Assembly (NCBI RefSeq): GCF_001513975.1
Contig: NZ_KQ947984.1
Span: 558,001 to 622,000 of the forward strand
Direction of reading: 5' to 3'
Length of the DNA: 64,000 bases
Source: Streptomyces curacoi
Lineage (GTDB): Bacteria > Actinomycetota > Actinomycetes > Streptomycetales > Streptomycetaceae
Below are positions 4,201 to 48,417 of this stretch, one piece after another. The notes beneath the pieces are model-generated. The model did not search any database and was not told where the DNA came from. It saw only the letters and a program-made list of their open reading frames with translations. Position 1 is the stretch's first letter; every line of letters begins with the position of its first letter. The position numbers and the translations under genes are program-made.

Positions 4201-5580
4201 GTGCTTGAGCCCGCGTACCAGGCGGACGTCGTCATCGTGGGAGCCGGGGTCGCCGGTCTCTCCGCGGCGCATCGGCTGACCAGCGCAGGAGTAACGACCG
4301 CGGTCCTGGAGGCCGCCCCTTACGCGGGCGGCCGAATGTCGACCGAGAAGATCGACGGGTTCCGGCTCGACCGGATCGGACAGCTCCTTTCGACGTCGTA
4401 TCCCGAACTACGGCTGACTCCCGGCCTCGACACGATGGCGCTGCGCGCCTTCGCGCCGGGCGTACTGCTGCACAGCGACGGGCGCCGGCAGCGCGCGGGC
4501 GCGTTGGCGACCCCGAGCGCACGGCGCGCGAGGGGCGCACTGCACGCGGTGCGCGCCCTGGCAAGCGCCCCTCGGGCGGCGTCCGTGCGGGGTGTTCCGG
4601 GGCAGTCGTCCGTGCCCAGGGCGCGTACGGGCGCCCCGCTCGGTACCGCCGTCGACCAGGCCCGGCTCGGCGCCGCGCTCGCCCGCCTCGCCGGCGCGCC
4701 GGTCGAACGGCTGCTGGCCCGCCCCGAGTCGTCGGCCGCGCAGGCCCTCGCGGCGCGGGGCGTTCCGGCGCGCACCATCGACGGTTTCCTGCGGCCGCTG
4801 CTCGCCGCGCTGCTGTGCGATCCGGAGCTGACGACGTCCAGCCGGTGCGCGGATCTCGCGCTGCGCTCCTTCGCCGGCGGGCGGTTGTGCGTGCCCGAGG
4901 GCGGCGCCGAGGCACTGCCCGAGCTGCTGGCGCGCGCCCTGCCGCCGGGCACCGTGCACACCGGCGTGCGGGTCACGTCGATCGCCACGACGTCGGTGAC
5001 CACCGCGGAGCACGGCGAGATACGCTGCCGGGCCGTCCTGCTCGCGACGGACGCCAGGACCGCCGCCGAGTTGCTGCCGGGCCTGCGTGTACCGGACTTC
5101 CATCCGGTCACGGTCGTCCACCACACGACGGACGAGCCGCCGGCGACCGGCGCCTCGCTGCTGCTCGACGCCGACCGGGGCGGCCCGGTCGCCCATACGG
5201 CGGTGATCAGCCAGGTCGACCCGAGCCGCGCGCCGGCGGGCCGGGCGCTCGTCTCGTCGACGGTCCTCGGCACACCGCCGCCCGACATCGACACGGCCGT
5301 ACGCAGGCACCTGTCCCGCCTCTACGGCACGTCCACGGCACGCTGGGAGACCCTCGCCGTGCACCACACCCCCGAGGCCGTGCCCGCGATGCGCCCACCG
5401 CACGACCTGCGCCGCCCGGTGCGGCTGCTGGCGGGCCTGTACGTGTGCGGCGACCACCGGGACACCAGCACGGTGCAGGGCGCCCTGCACTCGGCCCACC
5501 GGGCCGCCTCGGCGATCCTGACGGACCTCGGGGCGGCCGGGTCCCTGCACCGGGCGGAGCCGTTGCGGGCGGCGGCCTGA
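4201..5580 (+). CDS. FAD-dependent oxidoreductase (amine-oxidase/protoporphyrinogen-oxidase-like)
   Basis: The 459-residue protein opens with a dinucleotide-binding motif GAGVAGLSAAHRL (Gly14, 16, 19). It ends with a flavin-binding C-terminal segment (LYVCGDHRDTSTVQGALHSA) typical of the flavin amine oxidase/phytoene desaturase superfamily. The substrate is not recognisable; the enzyme may be a desaturase or amine oxidase. GTG at 4201 is chosen because GAGGAGGGGC ends just before it and the FAD motif follows at the usual distance. The gene reads convergently into the NsdA-like regulator with only 14 bp between the stops. Confidence 0.85.
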   Translation: MLEPAYQADVVIVGAGVAGLSAAHRLTSAGVTTAVLEAAPYAGGRMSTEKIDGFRLDRIGQLLSTSYPELRLTPGLDTMALRAFAPGVLLHSDGRRQRAGALATPSARRARGALHAVRALASAPRAASVRGVPGQSSVPRARTGAPLGTAVDQARLGAALARLAGAPVERLLARPESSAAQALAARGVPARTIDGFLRPLLAALLCDPELTTSSRCADLALRSFAGGRLCVPEGGAEALPELLARALPPGTVHTGVRVTSIATTSVTTAEHGEIRCRAVLLATDARTAAELLPGLRVPDFHPVTVVHHTTDEPPATGASLLLDADRGGPVAHTAVISQVDPSRAPAGRALVSSTVLGTPPPDIDTAVRRHLSRLYGTSTARWETLAVHHTPEAVPAMRPPHDLRRPVRLLAGLYVCGDHRDTSTVQGALHSAHRAASAILTDLGAAGSLHRAEPLRAAA

Positions 5581-9794: not shown

Positions 9795-10496
9795 ATGGCG
9801 AGGAAGGACACGGCAGCAGACGCTGCGAATCCCGGGCGACTGAAGCAGATCGCCCTGACCTACAAGATGACCCGCAGGGCCGACAAGAAGATCGGTCTTG
9901 TACTCGCGGCAGTAGGAATCGTCACCTTCGGTGTCTTCCTCGCGATCGGTTTCTTGATCGGTCACCCCATCTATCTCGGCATCCTGGGCCTCCTGCTCGC
10001 CTTCCTCGCGACGGCGATCGTGTTCGGGCGCCGGGCCGAGCGGGCCGCCTTCGGGCAGATGGAGGGCCAGCCGGGCGCCGCAGCGGCCGTGCTGGACAAC
10101 ATCGGCCGGGGCTGGACGACGACACCGGCGGTGGCGATGAACCGCAGCCAGGACGTGGTCCACCGGGCCGTCGGCAAGGCCGGCATCGTGCTGGTCGCCG
10201 AGGGCAACCCGAACCGGGTGAAGAGCCTGCTGGCGGCCGAGAAGAAGAAGATGAACCGCATCGTCGCGGACGTGCCGGTGCACGATCTGATCGTCGGCGT
10301 CGGCGAGGGCCAGGTCGAGCTGAAGAAGCTGCGGACCACCATGCTGAAGCTGCCGCGCGTGCTGACCGGTCCCCAGGTGACCGCCACCAACGACCGGCTG
10401 CGGGCCATGGGTGACCTGATGAGCAACATGCCGCTGCCGAAGGGCCCGATGCCCAAGGGCATGAAGCTGCCGAAGGGCGGGCCGAAGGCCCGCTGA
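9795..10496 (+). CDS. DUF4191 integral membrane protein
   Basis: The 233-residue protein has two adjacent transmembrane segments (about residues 35-80, IGLVLAAVGIVTFGVFLA and YLGILGLLLAFLATAIVFG). A soluble C-terminal half follows, ending in a Lys/Pro/Gly-rich tail. This is the DUF4191 architecture of actinobacteria, usually found near lipA and glnA. The biochemical function is unknown. The ATG at 9795 is close to the front of the hydrophobic part and the frame is strongly coding. A strong terminator follows at 10511-10547. Confidence 0.88.
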   Translation: MARKDTAADAANPGRLKQIALTYKMTRRADKKIGLVLAAVGIVTFGVFLAIGFLIGHPIYLGILGLLLAFLATAIVFGRRAERAAFGQMEGQPGAAAAVLDNIGRGWTTTPAVAMNRSQDVVHRAVGKAGIVLVAEGNPNRVKSLLAAEKKKMNRIVADVPVHDLIVGVGEGQVELKKLRTTMLKLPRVLTGPQVTATNDRLRAMGDLMSNMPLPKGPMPKGMKLPKGGPKAR

Positions 10497-37700: not shown

Positions 37701-43112
<5,412 letters not shown>

Positions 43113-43180
43113 GATGTGGACTCCTTGCGGTGTACGGCTCTTCGGGTCCGACCCCGCGCGACCGTATCGCCGACGAAATG

Positions 43181-43223
43181 CTTTCAGCAAGAGTCCTGAA
43201 ACGATCGGTAAGAACTTTCAGCA
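43181..43223 (-). promoter_or_regulatory. MalR-like direct repeats upstream of pulA
   Basis: Read on the minus strand, TGCTGAAAG occurs at 43215-43223 and again at 43181-43189, a 34-bp step, the second inside CTCTTGCTGAAAG. The CTTGC core is the same as in front of amlA, malE and malR in this window, so the same repressor probably binds here, 70-110 bp before the pulA start. Confidence 0.6.
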
Positions 43224-44282
43224 GGGGGAGTTCGTCTGCGTCAGCAGCCCCAGCCGCCAGGGCAGGGTGTTGTAGGGGCCGCTCGCCGAGGGGTTCATGC
43301 CCTGGTAGAGGAACTGCAGGCGGCACGGGTTGATGGTGAGGGTCTGGTTGTTGTAGTGGCGGACCATCTCGCCGTGGCTGATGTCCCGGGTCCAGGGGGT
43401 GCCGCTGAAGGCCACGTTGTTCGACCGCGCGAACGGGTTGGACTCGGTGTCGGCCAGCGGCGTCCAGCTGCCGTTGATGCGGTTCGACGTCCAGGACCGG
43501 AAGTACCGCTTGCCGTCGCCGCCGATCGCCTCGTTGAGCAGCAGATAGGTGTCGGAGTCCTTGAGCTTGTAGACGTTGGAGGCCTCCCACAGGCGGTACT
43601 TGTTGGAGTCCTGCAGCGCGATGACGGTGTTGGTGAAGCCGTTCGGGTAGTTGGCCAGCGTGGTCTCCGACCGGTAGAGATGCCCGTTGTCGTCGGAGGA
43701 GAACAGGTAGCACTTGGCGCTGTCGCAGATGACCCAGAAGTCGACCCAGTAGCCGCTGCCGATGTTGTCCTTGATGATCTGCGGCATGCCGTTCGCGTAG
43801 AACTTCTTCGGAGCGGTCCACGACCTGGGGTTGCTGATGTCCGTCGTGGTGGAGTACGCCGCGTTGTCACCGGTCTGGTAGACGAGGTACCACAGCTTCT
43901 GCGGCTCGAACCAGAACACCTGCGGCGCGGCCTTGTAGCCGGGGCCGATCGCGGTCTGGTCCAGGTAGTGGTGCTGCGCGGCGCCGGCCTCCTGCCAGCT
44001 GGGGAAGTTCAGGTAGACCATGCTGTAGGTGCCGTTGGTGGTCGTGGTGCTGGCGAACACGTGCCACCGGCCGTTGTGGTACACGACCGACGGGTCCTTG
44101 ACCGCGCTGAGCTGGTGGCTCGCGTCGGACTTCGGGGAGATGAGCACTCCGCTCGAATTCCACTGGAAGCTGCCGGGTAACGGGGCCGCCGACGCCGGCG
44201 AGGCGGCCAGAGCGGTCAGGATCACACCCCACAGCAGGGCGAGCCCGCCGGCCAGGATCCCCGTACGTCTCGTCACACGCAT
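43218..44282 (-). CDS. GH62 alpha-L-arabinofuranosidase, secreted
   Basis: The enzyme removes arabinose side chains from arabinoxylan. The 354-residue protein has a signal peptide (GILAGGLALLWGVILTALAA, cleaved near ASA-AP) and a single GH62 five-bladed propeller without a binding module: SGVLISPKSDASHQLSAVKD, DPSVVYHNGRWHVFAST with a catalytic Asp, WFEPQKLWYLVYQTG and LWEASNVYKL with the likely catalytic Glu. AGGAGG ten bases before ATG 44282 sets the start; an upstream ATG lies over that site and is rejected. It follows the GH30 gene by 17 bp, so the two form an operon under the CebR-type operator. Confidence 0.93.
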   Translation of the reverse strand: MRVTRRTGILAGGLALLWGVILTALAASPASAAPLPGSFQWNSSGVLISPKSDASHQLSAVKDPSVVYHNGRWHVFASTTTTNGTYSMVYLNFPSWQEAGAAQHHYLDQTAIGPGYKAAPQVFWFEPQKLWYLVYQTGDNAAYSTTTDISNPRSWTAPKKFYANGMPQIIKDNIGSGYWVDFWVICDSAKCYLFSSDDNGHLYRSETTLANYPNGFTNTVIALQDSNKYRLWEASNVYKLKDSDTYLLLNEAIGGDGKRYFRSWTSNRINGSWTPLADTESNPFARSNNVAFSGTPWTRDISHGEMVRHYNNQTLTINPCRLQFLYQGMNPSASGPYNTLPWRLGLLTQTNSPC

Positions 44283-44299: not shown

Positions 44300-45715
44300 T
44301 CATTTGATGGTGTAGGTGACCAGTGAGCGGGCCGGCACCGTGGCGGTCATCGAGCCCGCGGTGACCGCGACGGCCGGCTGCCGTGCGGTGCTGTGGGAGC
44401 CGTTGGTCAGGTGCGGGGTCGCCGTGCCGGTGGTGATGCCGGTGTTGCGCAGGCTGTACGACACCTGCTGGGCGCTGGTGGCCGCGTTGAGCGCCACGAC
44501 CGTCAGGGAGCCGTCGGTGTTGCGGAACGCCGACAGCCTGAGGTCGGCGTCGGGCGTGGTGGCGCCGACCCGGACGGCTCCGGGGCGGATGAAGCGGCTG
44601 TAGTTGGCGATCGCCCACAGCCGCTTGGAGACATGGAAGGTGGCGCCGTCCATCTGGATCAGCCCGCGGGTGGCACCGACCGAGGCGCCGTACCAGTAGA
44701 TGTAGCCGTTGGCGTTGCCCTTGGTGAGGGCGTCATGGACGGCCGAGGCGACGGTGAAGCCGTCGTAGCCGCTGCCGTCGTCCCAGTTCGCGTTCCAGGT
44801 GGTGCCGTTGGGGGACCACTCCGACATCCAGGTCCGCTTCGTGGTCGGCAGGGGCCCGTCGACCGGGCTGGCGTAGGTGTGGCCGGCGTGGGTGGCGACG
44901 AGGTTGCGTGCGGTGGCGTCGGCCTCGATCGCAGCGCTGTACTTCTTCTGCTGGTTCCAGCCGAAGGAGTCGCAGCAGACGACCTTGTATCCGGCCGAGT
45001 TCGCCACGGGGCCGAAGACCTTGGTGAACTCGACGGCCTGGGCGGGCGTGAGCCGCATGGAGTCGTAGGTGGCGGTCCAGTCGGGCTCGTTGGTGAACCC
45101 TATGTCGTTGATCCGGATGCCCTCCTGGCCGTAGAACTTCGCCCACTGGACCAGGTAGTTCGCATACGCCCGGCGCCAGTCGCCGCTCGCGCAGGTGGCA
45201 CCCGCGAGGCCGCACAGGGTGCCGCCGTTCGCGTCGGTGCCGTTGGTCTTCATGTAGCCGGGCGCGGTCCAGGCGTCGGCGTAGAAGCGGGTCACGCCGT
45301 AGGCCTTGGCCTGCTGGGCCAGCCATACCTGGCCCTTGTCGCTGCGGTCCCAGACGTACTTGGGGGTGGCGTTCGGTCCGCCGGGGTCGGTCGGCTGGAT
45401 GCCGGAGTCGATGCCGAGCCGCAGGATGCTCAGCCCGGCGCCGGTGGTGCGGCTCAGCAGCAGGTCCAGCAGCTCGCGTTGGCGCTCGGCGGGCAGGCCC
45501 TGCGAGCCGCGCATGATCTCGGCCCGTCCGAAGTGCTCGGAGAAGCCGAAGCCGTCGACGGGCTGGAGTCTGGTCGATCCGTCGATCGTCGCCGAGGTGG
45601 CCGTGGCCTCCGGCGGGGCGGCCGTGGTTTCCGGCGGGGTGGCCGCTGTGACACCGGCGACCGCCAGTAGGACAGCTGTGGACGTCAGGGTCCACTTCCT
45701 GAGTCTGCGCAGCAT
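44300..45715 (-). CDS. GH30 family secreted glycosidase
   Basis: The 471-residue exported protein has a signal peptide (LTSTAVLLAVAGVTAA) and a GH30 (beta/alpha)8 barrel with its side beta domain: DGFGFSEHFGRAEIM, LRLGIDSG, the acid/base in DIGFTNEPDW and the nucleophile in WMSEWSPNG, then the C-terminal beta part ending LVTYTIK. GH30 members hydrolyse glucuronoxylan, beta-1,6-galactan or beta-glucans; the subfamily is not resolved by eye. Pairing with a GH62 arabinofuranosidase favours hemicellulose. The ATG at 45715 sits 14 bp after a perfect CebR-type operator. Confidence 0.9.
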   Translation of the reverse strand: MLRRLRKWTLTSTAVLLAVAGVTAATPPETTAAPPEATATSATIDGSTRLQPVDGFGFSEHFGRAEIMRGSQGLPAERQRELLDLLLSRTTGAGLSILRLGIDSGIQPTDPGGPNATPKYVWDRSDKGQVWLAQQAKAYGVTRFYADAWTAPGYMKTNGTDANGGTLCGLAGATCASGDWRRAYANYLVQWAKFYGQEGIRINDIGFTNEPDWTATYDSMRLTPAQAVEFTKVFGPVANSAGYKVVCCDSFGWNQQKKYSAAIEADATARNLVATHAGHTYASPVDGPLPTTKRTWMSEWSPNGTTWNANWDDGSGYDGFTVASAVHDALTKGNANGYIYWYGASVGATRGLIQMDGATFHVSKRLWAIANYSRFIRPGAVRVGATTPDADLRLSAFRNTDGSLTVVALNAATSAQQVSYSLRNTGITTGTATPHLTNGSHSTARQPAVAVTAGSMTATVPARSLVTYTIK

Positions 45716-45728
45716 GATCCACCAATCG

Positions 45729-45742
45729 TGGGAGCGCTCCCA
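45729..45742 (-). promoter_or_regulatory. CebR-type operator TGGGAGCGCTCCCA
   Basis: A perfect 14-bp palindrome, identical to the published CebR consensus of Streptomyces, lies 13 bp before the GH30 start. CebR is the cellobiose-responsive LacI-family repressor of cellulose-use genes. No cebR gene is in this window, so the repressor must act from elsewhere. Confidence 0.85.
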
Positions 45743-45837
45743 ATCCACTGCGGAACGTAAGGTGGTGTCATGCAACCGTCAACCCCTGGAGTACCGCGCA
45801 TTGTCAGCGGCAACAATGCGCGGTCCCGGAGCCGGGC

Positions 45838-47217
45838 TCAGCAGCTGGCCTTGCCGGCGTAGATCGCCAGGGCGGTGTTCGAGCCGAGAGTGGCCGTGAA
45901 CTGCCCGCTGGAGTTCACCGTCACGGTCGTGTTGTTCTGCACGTTGCAGTACGTCCCCGCGGGCAGCGACGTCTGGTACGTCCGGCTCAGCGAGCCCGAC
46001 TCGTGGTTGATGGCCACGAAGCCCTTGCTGCCCCGCCCGAACGCGATCGCGTCGCCGCCGTTGTCCCACCAGTTGGTGACCGCCGCACCGCGCGTGGCGT
46101 TGCGGAAGGCGACCATCGACTTGATCTCCGGCCAGTTGTGCTGGCACTTCCACCCGTCCTGCCAGCAGGCGTTGACCTGGCCGCCGTTCGGGGGGCCGGC
46201 GTCGTGGTCGGAGAACTCGTAGCCGGAGTTGATGTCGGGAGCGCCGTAGGGCCAGGCCAGCATGAAGACGTTGGCCAGGGTGTAGTTGGCGCCGTCCTTG
46301 TAGTTCAGGGTGGAGCCGTTGCGCTCGGTGTCGTGGTTGTCGACGAAGACGCCGGAGACACCGCTTTTCATGTAGCCCCAGCCCTCGCCGTAGTTCTTCA
46401 GATAGGCGAGGTTCTCGTTGTTGAAGACGCGCTTGAGGTCGTAGGCATAGCGGAATTCCTGGACGTCGCCGTTGCCCGTGTACTCGGTGGGCTGGACGGC
46501 CTCTCCGCTGCCGTAGATGACCTCCTGCTTCCAGTACACGGAGGGGTTGGTCAGCCGGGACTTGATGTTGGCGAGGTCGGCGGCGTCCATGTGCTTGGCC
46601 GCGTCGATGCGGAAGCCGTCGACGCCGAGCGAGAGCAGGTCGTTCATGTAGCCGGCGATGGCACCGCGGACGTAGGACTCGCCGGTGTCCAGGTCGGCCA
46701 GTCCCACCAGCTCGCAGTGCTGGACGTTCCAGCGGTCCTGGTAGTTGGAGATCTGGCTCGTGCAGTCGTCGAAGTCGTACGACGAGTACAGGCCCGGGTA
46801 GTTGTACTTGGTGTACGACGAGCCGCCGGTGCCGGTGCCGCTGCCCGCCGCCATGTGGTTGATGACGGTGTCGACGACGACCTTCACACCGGCCGCGTGG
46901 CAGGTGTTGACCATGTTCTGGAAGGCCGTACGGTCGCCGAGCCGGCCGGCGATCCTGTAGCTCACCGGCTGGTACGACGTCCACCACTGCGCGCCCTGGA
47001 TGTGCTCGGCGGGCGGGGAGACCTGGACGTAGCCGTAGCCGGCGGGGCCGAGGGTGTTGGTGCACTCCTTCGCCACCGAGGCGAACTTCCACTCGAAGAG
47101 GACGGCGGTGACGTCCTTGGTGCCGGGCGGGGAGGCGTGCGCGGTGGTCGCGGGGGCCATGAGGGCTGCCGCCGTGGCGGCGAGCGCGGTCGCGCTGACG
47201 GACCATCTCGATATCAC
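45838..47217 (-). CDS. aml: Secreted alpha-amylase (GH13)
   Basis: The 459-residue enzyme cuts alpha-1,4 bonds in starch outside the cell. After a signal peptide ([20 protein letters not shown]) come the GH13 regions in order: [17 protein letters not shown] with the nucleophile, QEVIYGSGE with the acid and [11 protein letters not shown]. It ends with the typical Streptomyces amylase C-terminal beta domain and a final Cys. There is no starch-binding module. GTG at 47217 is the start (AAGGAG nine bases upstream). CTTGCT direct repeats upstream suggest MalR control and induction by maltodextrins. Confidence 0.95.
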
Positions 47218-47290
47218 TGGCGTGAACTCCTTGCGATGACGGCCAGGCGTCGTTGCCGGGCGCCGGCGTGAACGTACCGCCGCGAAAGGT

Positions 47291-47321
47291 TTACAGCAAG
47301 AGAGTTGAAATTCATAGCAAG
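47291..47321 (-). promoter_or_regulatory. MalR-like direct repeats upstream of the amylase gene
   Basis: Minus-strand CTTGCTATGAA (47311-47321) and CTTGCTGTAA (47291-47300) are spaced 21 bp apart, two helix turns, within an AT-rich stretch about 75-105 bp before the amylase start. The core matches the repeats at pulA and malE/malR. Confidence 0.65.
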
Positions 47322-47436
47322 TAATTTCATCCGCAACCTTGACGTGCCCTTCGCAACTCCGCCACGCTCATGAGTCGTTGAAACCCTGACGGCTGAGTTC
47401 GCGGATCTGGCGCCCCGCCCGGGAGAGGTCGCGGGA

Positions 47437-48276
47437 TCAGTGCGCGGCCTCTCCGGCTGTCGGCGTCGGCGGCTCGTCGGCGGTGATGCGGGCCAGCAGG
47501 GTGTGGACTTCCCGGATACGAGGGTGGTCGGGATGCAGGAACCGCTCGCAGTCGGTGAGCGCCTGACGCGCTGCCGCCTCCGCCTCGTCGAGGCGCCCGA
47601 GGCCATGCAGGGCGCCGGCCGTGGCCAGGCCCAGGCTGCCGCTCTGCCCCCGGTCCCACCGCGGGACGAACCGGCGTGCCTCGGTCAGCGCTTCGTCGTG
47701 CCGCCCCTGGCCGCTCAGGCTGCGCACCAGGGTGCAGTGCAGGGAGGCGAGCGCGGCACCTTCGGCGCGGGGCAGGTTCCCCCGGGCGATGGCCTCGGCC
47801 TCCTCGTAGCGGGCCTGGTCGTACAGCGCGTCCGCCAGGTTGCCCAACGCGCACAACTCGATGTCCCACACCGATGCCAGATGCTTGAGGCGGGCCAGTT
47901 CGCGCAGCAGGTCCAGTCCCGCCGCCTCCGCCTCGCGGTACCGCCCCAGATGGCCGAGGACCATCATGTGATTGTTCCGGACCATGAGCAGCAGCGTCCG
48001 CCCGGATCCGGTCGCCCCCTTCAGCTCCGCCGCGAGGGACTCCAGTTCGGCCAGCACCTGCGCCCCGCGCCCATGAGCACAGGCCGCCGCCGTGGCCAGC
48101 GCCTTGGCGTGCCACTCCACGGCGAGCCCCCGCGCCCGCCGGCGCCGGCGCGCCGCCTGCGCCTCAAGCGCCCTTGCCCCGGCCTCGACCTCCTCGTACT
48201 CACCCTGCTGCCACAGGTGATGGAGACGGTGGAGGGCGACCGCGGCCCGCGAGCGGCGCCGTATCAGCCGTGTCAT
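47437..48276 (-). CDS. TPR-type hypothetical protein
   Basis: The 279-residue soluble protein is built of helical hairpins of the tetratricopeptide type (LHHLWQQGEYEEVEAGARAL, LGNLADALYDQARYEEAEAI, LHGLGRLDEAEAAARQAL). The ATG at 48276 is preferred over an open extension to 48393 because the latter would include the hairpin that ends the aglA transcript. No strong ribosome site is visible and the function is unknown. It lies between the mal operon and the amylase gene but shows nothing that ties it to sugar use. Confidence 0.72.
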   Translation of the reverse strand: MTRLIRRRSRAAVALHRLHHLWQQGEYEEVEAGARALEAQAARRRRRARGLAVEWHAKALATAAACAHGRGAQVLAELESLAAELKGATGSGRTLLLMVRNNHMMVLGHLGRYREAEAAGLDLLRELARLKHLASVWDIELCALGNLADALYDQARYEEAEAIARGNLPRAEGAALASLHCTLVRSLSGQGRHDEALTEARRFVPRWDRGQSGSLGLATAGALHGLGRLDEAEAAARQALTDCERFLHPDHPRIREVHTLLARITADEPPTPTAGEAAH

Positions 48277-48335
48277 CCGTGCGATCTTCACGGGCCGTGA
48301 GAGTACGTGAAGACACCTGTCAAGAACAGATTCGG

Positions 48336-48356
48336 CCGCCTCTCGAACAGAGGCGG
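48336..48356 (-). terminator. Hairpin after aglA
   Basis: CCGCCTCT (48336-48343) pairs with AGAGGCGG (48349-48356) around CGAAC, just past the aglA stop on the minus strand; probable end of the malEFG-aglA transcript. Confidence 0.6.
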
Positions 48357-48417
48357 GGCCCGCCGCCCGGAAACGGACGACGGGCCCCGACATCAGGACG
48401 TGGGCGAGCCTTGGGTG

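Follow-up and report, generated by a model that had tools for sequence, protein, structure and literature searches.

The GH30-GH62 operon and its surroundings

The window analyzed here, a stretch of 64,000 nucleotides from Streptomyces curacoi, contains a maltose and starch gene block into which two genes for xylan-degrading enzymes are placed. The gene order on the minus strand is alpha-amylase (47217-45838), GH30 (45715-44300), GH62 (44282-43218) and amylase-pullulanase (approximately 43112-37701), and the block around amlA and pulA further includes an alpha-glucosidase gene, genes of malGFE type and, in divergent orientation, a regulator gene of LacI type. The features are as follows:

37701..43112, minus strand: pulA, amylase-pullulanase (Pfam, NCBIfam TIGR02103; start codon placed from the ribosome site)
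43185..43220, minus strand: pulA promoter region, which begins with the three bases of the GH62 stop codon and includes a CTTGCTG half-site
43218..44282, minus strand: GH62 alpha-L-arabinofuranosidase, predicted, 354 aa, second gene of the operon (PF03664, 206.5 bits; 5b6s, 496 bits)
44300..45715, minus strand: GH30 xylanase, predicted, fungal-like subfamily 7, secreted, 471 aa (Pfam PF02055, PF17189; GH30_7 relatives with E ~1e-97)
45729..45742, no strand: CebR-type operator (exact match, 0.0009 expected; at most one mismatch in 25/25 close orthologs)
45754..45759, minus strand: proposed GH30 -10 box, TACGTT (11 bp upstream of the operator)
45777..45782, minus strand: proposed -35 box TTGACG of the GH30 promoter (pattern in 19/24 loci, within the 75 bp before the operator)
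45793..45824, minus strand: hairpin separating amlA from the GH30 promoter, perhaps an insulator or terminator (-30.3 kcal/mol, z -2.86)
45838..47217, minus strand: amlA, secreted alpha-amylase (Pfam)
47294..47300, minus strand: CTTGCTG half-site before amlA, proposed MalR-type (core motif from the available part of PMC5526262)
53732..54973, plus strand: LacI-type regulator, MalR candidate (Pfam; divergent from malE, next to malEFG)

GH30 ends at position 44300 and the GH62 ATG is at 44282, leaving the 17-bp gap that the preliminary description had reported, with an AGGAGG ribosome site inside it. The assignment of both genes to one operon holds at the sequence level, given this gap and a relative in which GH30 is deleted and GH62 lies behind the same promoter and operator. 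Upstream of GH30, the pattern TTGACG-17-TAC(G/C)(T/G)T ends 10-18 bp before the operator in 19 of the 24 loci aligned on the operator. The proposed -10 box matches the textbook consensus at only 3 of 6 bases, and a generic promoter and terminator scan found nothing, the proposed GH30 -35 box included.

The flanking starch genes had been described as MalR-type. The promoters of amlA and pulA do fit the half-site CTTGC(A/T)G, which is present once before each of them and twice around malE-malR, but its total number in the window equals the chance expectation. Half-sites are absent between amlA and GH30, and for this reason a MalR operator at the GH30 promoter was rejected. The regions upstream of pulA (43100-43220) and amlA (47210-47330) share a CTTGCTG stretch, an AAGGAGT ribosome site and similar first codons, as if duplicated. 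A TPR-repeat protein gene (47440-48393) lies between aglA and amlA; among the compared loci, it has homologs at this place only in L008 and L163.

Since amlA and GH30 are on the same strand, with 122 bp from the amlA stop to the GH30 start, the operon might be transcribed mainly by read-through from the MalR-controlled amlA gene, the CebR site then acting as a roadblock in a two-input maltose/cellobiose switch. Such read-through is possible because a stem of at least 12 pairs is found in only 6 of 22 orthologous spacers, the other 16 being without a strong hairpin. In the window, however, a strong hairpin separates the two genes and may insulate their transcripts, GH30 has a conserved promoter of its own just before the operator in 19/24 loci, and a promoter of this kind persists at the locus L007, away from the maltose block. 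We consider predominant read-through unlikely.

The operator and its chance expectation

The perfectly palindromic 14-mer TGGGAGCGCTCCCA at positions 45729-45742 is the sole exact match in the window and is identical to the CebR consensus given in the available parts of PMC4898821 and PMC5332605. It is separated by 13 bp (45716-45728) from the GH30 ATG (45715-45713, minus strand), so that the earlier claim of a perfect CebR operator 13 bp before GH30 was correct in sequence, position and distance. This spacing nevertheless varies across relatives, and what is conserved is the place of the operator behind the -10 box. A conserved operator-ATG distance was accordingly rejected, an ATG overlapping or abutting the operator end in the group of L004, L018, L078, L079 and L080.

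By base composition and by a first-order model, which agree, 0.0009 exact copies of TGGGAGCGCTCCCA are expected in 64 kb and 0.11 in the 8.41-Mb genome. The genome contains eight, and none of the reversed control pattern. Exact copies are present in 89 of 101 sampled genomes of the genus (500 copies altogether), the control pattern in 1 of 101. Sites with up to three mismatches show no excess in the window (7 found vs 8.05 expected), which confines the significance to the exact site. That near matches are as many as predicted would also suit a chance palindrome or an intergenic hairpin without a regulator. This explanation is extremely improbable, as the same sequence is present at seven other cellulose-related places in the genome and the operator is near-invariant among orthologs with diverged flanks; this conservation and the expectation of 0.0009 exact copies in the window led us to reject it.

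CebR-type sites in the genome and candidate regulators

The eight exact sites in the genome are located as follows:

before GH30 (window copy)
before an AA10 oxidase gene
at a divergent pair of CBM2-GH48 and CBM2-protein genes
before an AA10-CBM2 gene
before a GDSL-CBM2 gene
before a GH5-CBM2 gene
before a CE2-type esterase gene
between cebE and cebR

All of them are at cellulose or hemicellulose genes or at cebE/cebR. Two sites with one mismatch precede a second GH62 gene (56% identical to the window GH62) and, at a distance of 11 bp, bglC; the bglC variant is the S. scabies variant in Table 1 of PMC5332605, as far as that source was available. Judged by content, the set of genes at these sites is the known CebR regulon. 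The CebR candidate is the LacI gene adjoining cebEFG-bglC (SBP, permeases and a GH1-like bglC), an assignment that follows gene order.

The genome contains 35 matches to the CebR protein, namely CebR itself and 34 others, and the operator might be bound mainly by another LacI-family protein, with an inducer such as a xylo-, manno- or galacto-oligosaccharide. L090 is 55% identical to CebR, and L091 has the same RG residues of the recognition helix. Moreover, in the available part of PMC12772271 BxlR is given as the regulator of the GH10/GH11 xylanases of strain SirexAA-E, and its authors suggest that CebR may respond to further sugars. Against such a binder, L091 is located within a GH42-ABC transporter cluster and has no site with up to three mismatches within 1.5 kb, L090 has only a three-mismatch site, and the exact site found at the GH30 promoter is repeated identically at cebE/cebR. 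The BxlR motif CGAANNTTTCG is missing around 45700-45800, also when one mismatch is allowed, and a BxlR operator at the GH30 promoter was rejected on this ground. Control mainly by a LacI-family protein other than CebR is quite improbable. Elsewhere in the genome, the BxlR motif has 27 strand-wise matches, some of which adjoin a LacI gene on contig 5. A further sequence, TGGAAGCGCTTCCA, is found in L068 (17487 and 17607) and L076 (17527) beside a LacI gene 45-54% identical to CebR, and is possibly the operator of a CebR paralog.

Conservation of the operator among GH30 orthologs

We collected 25 close orthologs (GH30 identity at least 77%), comprising 20 named loci, the window and the loci G104, G009, G197 and G124. 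The last four come from a sample of 295 genomes of the genus, 24 of which have a GH30 of this kind; the sample entries G153, G062 and G014 were taken as L007, L010 and L024 and counted once. The operator is found upstream of all 25 genes, exactly in 21 and with one mismatch in four (L007, L024, G009 and G124). Together with the identity to the consensus and the presence of the same site at the cebE, AA10, GH48, GH5 and CE2 promoters, this retention in 25/25 argues for the CebR-type operator originally proposed.

Twenty-four loci, all the close orthologs except L007, were aligned on the operator. Averaged over the 19 of them with the promoter pattern, the mean information is 1.98 bits in the operator columns vs 0.51 and 0.48 bits in the flanks. 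The remaining five form a single GH30 clade, in which about 90 bp are inserted between promoter and operator, and we count this distance against regulation by CebR. The inserts of this clade (L004, L018, L078, L079 and L080) contain a palindrome resembling TGAACGCTGTTCA together with a GC-rich hairpin, and may hold a further regulatory site.

GH30 is located between amlA and pulA in 22 of the 25 loci. The exceptions are G124, where no amlA was found upstream, L024, with broken genes and no amlA between, and L007, which is elsewhere in its genome. In L007 (S. spinoverrucosus, ~9915-9952), GH30-GH62 outside the maltose block is preceded by two imperfect operators, one of them inside the promoter spacer.

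Beyond the close orthologs, five further loci from Microbacterium/Arthrobacter (GH30 identity 45-48%) lack exact and one-mismatch sites alike. Sites with up to one mismatch are also missing from the 300 bp upstream of all 16 distant Streptomyces GH30 genes (51-69% identity). Ten of these 16 genes are clustered with ABC permeases and a gene of LacI type. For the distant GH30 L062 (genome G022), an exact site lies 1.8 kb upstream; it precedes a gene for a glucuronoyl esterase-CBM2 protein, and GH30 follows that gene. The order is reversed, GH62 then GH30, in L061 (7272-9618, genome G099), and the 17 kb read there contain no CebR site.

A gene cassette at the amlA-pulA junction

An N-terminal pullulanase query was matched in 110 of 150 genomes of the genus, and the best 30 of these 110 were read as loci. 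GH30 and/or GH62 occupy five of the 30 junctions and are missing from the other 25. In 19 of the 25 unfilled loci amlA lies within 1.5 kb upstream of pulA, and a CebR site with up to one mismatch is present in none of the 25 within the stretch read. The 18 empty spacers inspected lead from amlA into a TGAAAG...TTGCTG stretch, the promoter region of pulA, and contain no match to the TTGAC-type promoter pattern. In the window, the GH62 stop codon forms the first three bases of this stretch. The comparison bears out the suggestion of an inserted unit with its own regulation, as neither of the two genes, nor the promoter, nor the site is present in relatives where amlA adjoins pulA.

Of the two genes, GH62 has been kept less stably, being full-length in 11 of the 25 orthologous loci, broken in one (L024) and missing in 13. 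Its 3' end remains after GH30 in four of the 13 GH62-less loci (L012, L019, L077 and L079), while five shuffles of each of 38 stretches gave 0 hits. In genome G022 (L158, ~5260-5400), GH30 is apparently deleted to its last codons and GH62 is found directly behind the same promoter and exact operator. This arrangement amounts to a natural promoter fusion. In L015 and L017, GH30 is separated from pulA by genes of IS type, read as OrfB-like.

Empty junctions without the site, taken with the conserved promoter, operator and genes, point to a cassette before pulA from which GH62 was lost repeatedly and GH30 once. From the GH62 remnants and the GH30 remnant in G022, the ancestral unit was most likely GH30-GH62. 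The operator is retained whichever of the two genes remains.

Mapped on a quick pulA tree with 18 of 46 inner branches open, the filled and empty states require 14 changes vs a shuffled mean of 16.6 (64 of 500 shuffles as low). GH30 and pulA distances are correlated across 23 loci (r 0.63, a value reached in 0 of 2000 permutations). The correlation is in favour of descent that was mainly vertical, accompanied by losses, but recombinational exchange across homologous flanks could produce a similar picture. Since the filled junctions are scattered on the pulA tree despite this correlation, losses, re-entry and exchange are not separable. Tentatively, the junction in Streptomyces may be a presence/absence locus for a portable, self-regulated cassette that came in as a unit from a xylan-type set, was placed under the cellulose switch rather than a local xylan regulator, and was often lost, reduced to GH30 or GH62 alone, or moved with its operator near-invariant. 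If true, this would be a clear natural case of carbohydrate genes rewired from their own sugar to the signal of another polymer.

Predicted functions of GH30 and GH62

The GH62 protein matches Pfam PF03664 with 206.5 bits against a cut-off of 22.1, over profile positions 3-271 of 272. In NCBIfam GH62 is unmatched, and GH30, CebR and amlA have only matches below the cut-off. The best solved matches of both enzymes are of fungal type; for GH62 these scores are 496 bits for 5b6s vs 234 bits for 3wmy, which we take to be from Coprinopsis and S. coelicolor, respectively. Gene transfer between fungi and actinobacteria may have taken place.

Against solved chains, GH30 scores 248-331 bits with those of GH30_7 type and at most 110 bits with those of bacterial GH30_8 type, the placement of individual chains in these subfamilies being partly our assumption. 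Both residues that we take to be the catalytic glutamates are conserved in the alignment. In TcXyn30B, according to the available parts of PMC7262913 and PMC8347883, Arg-46, Glu-345 and Ser-351 hold glucuronic acid, and Cys-241/242 form a pair. The window GH30 resembles TcXyn30B and the fungal GH30_7 enzymes in its best solved relatives, in an adjacent CC aligned with the Cys-241/242 pair and in an equivalent of Arg-46 (residue 64). It differs from TcXyn30B in having Ser at the Glu-345 position, a gap at Ser-351 and a beta2-alpha2 loop 10 residues shorter. The enzyme was not classed as a glucuronoxylanase because Glu-345 and Ser-351 are not kept; with these changes and the shorter loop, both glucuronoxylan and xylobiohydrolase features look weaker. 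From this residue pattern, GH30 is predicted to be an endo-xylanase that depends little on glucuronic acid and acts with GH62 on arabinoxylan.

Proposed regulation and comparison with known systems

CebR, a repressor of the LacI type, dissociates from its sites when it binds cellobiose or cellotriose (PMC4890002), and cebR deletion in SirexAA-E makes cellulases constitutive (PMC4898821), both according to the parts of these papers available. The site at 45729-45742 is very probably a working CebR operator, at which CebR would block GH30-GH62 until cello-oligosaccharides appear, in a cassette with its own control. In the simplest model, sugar-free CebR would sit on the operator just below a sigma-70-type promoter and keep the two-gene operon, GH30 then GH62, silent; with a transcription start 7 bp below the -10 box, the operator would span about +3 to +17. 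The expected role of the operator is hence repression, rather than the driving of the operon ascribed to it in the preliminary description. Import of cellobiose or cellotriose by CebEFG would release CebR, and GH30 and GH62 would then be secreted with the cellulases, so that arabinoxylan would be stripped during the attack on cellulose. On this view, the operon would have arrived between amlA and pulA as a cassette that brought its promoter and operator along, and the maltose switch would not control it. The site, the promoter pattern, the tandem genes, their conservation, the empty junctions and the genes that share the site across the genome are observed, and from these we infer CebR binding, release by sugar, the transcription start and the enzyme activities. 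At the sequence level, the cellobiose-sensing wiring of GH30-GH62 is convincing, and it is conserved in relatives.

The CebR regulon of Streptomyces SirexAA-E and S. scabies, as described in the available parts of PMC4898821, PMC5332605 and PMC4890002, resembles the present system in the 14-bp operator before secreted CAZyme genes and in the cebR-cebEFG-bglC set with sites at cebE and bglC. Table 1 of PMC5332605 contains only cellulose and virulence genes, whereas the targets here are a GH30_7-like xylanase and GH62 inside the maltose/starch block. BxlR control in SirexAA-E (available part of PMC12772271) is similar in being LacI-type control of secreted xylan-degrading enzymes, but its operator CGAANNTTTCG is absent here and the xylan genes of the window carry the cellulose switch instead. 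In the available part of PMC3377646 (2012), CelR palindromes of A. mirum precede genes for two endoxylanases, a xyloglucanase and a pectate lyase, and A. robiniae has one site type common to cellulose and hemicellulose genes. Those cases differ in genera and gene families, and a cassette at the amlA-pulA junction is not mentioned in that part of the paper. Among the titles, abstract openings and text passages covered by the search, we found no published account of CebR-controlled GH30-GH62 at amlA-pulA in Streptomyces. As CebR/CelR sites at xylanase genes are already on record (PMC3377646, as far as available), the wiring of GH30-GH62 is a new instance of a well-known switch and not a new kind of system.

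The understanding of CebR itself would be unchanged, and the evolutionary interest of the cassette is moderate. An arabinoxylan-attacking operon would be added to the cellobiose-sensing regulon, whereas the GH10/GH11 xylanases of SirexAA-E are assigned to a xylobiose regulator (PMC12772271, in the part available). The locus also points to little-studied bacterial relatives of the fungal GH30_7 xylanases, and its states (full cassette, GH30 only, GH62 only and empty) form a natural series in which the rewiring of genes to a new signal can be tested.
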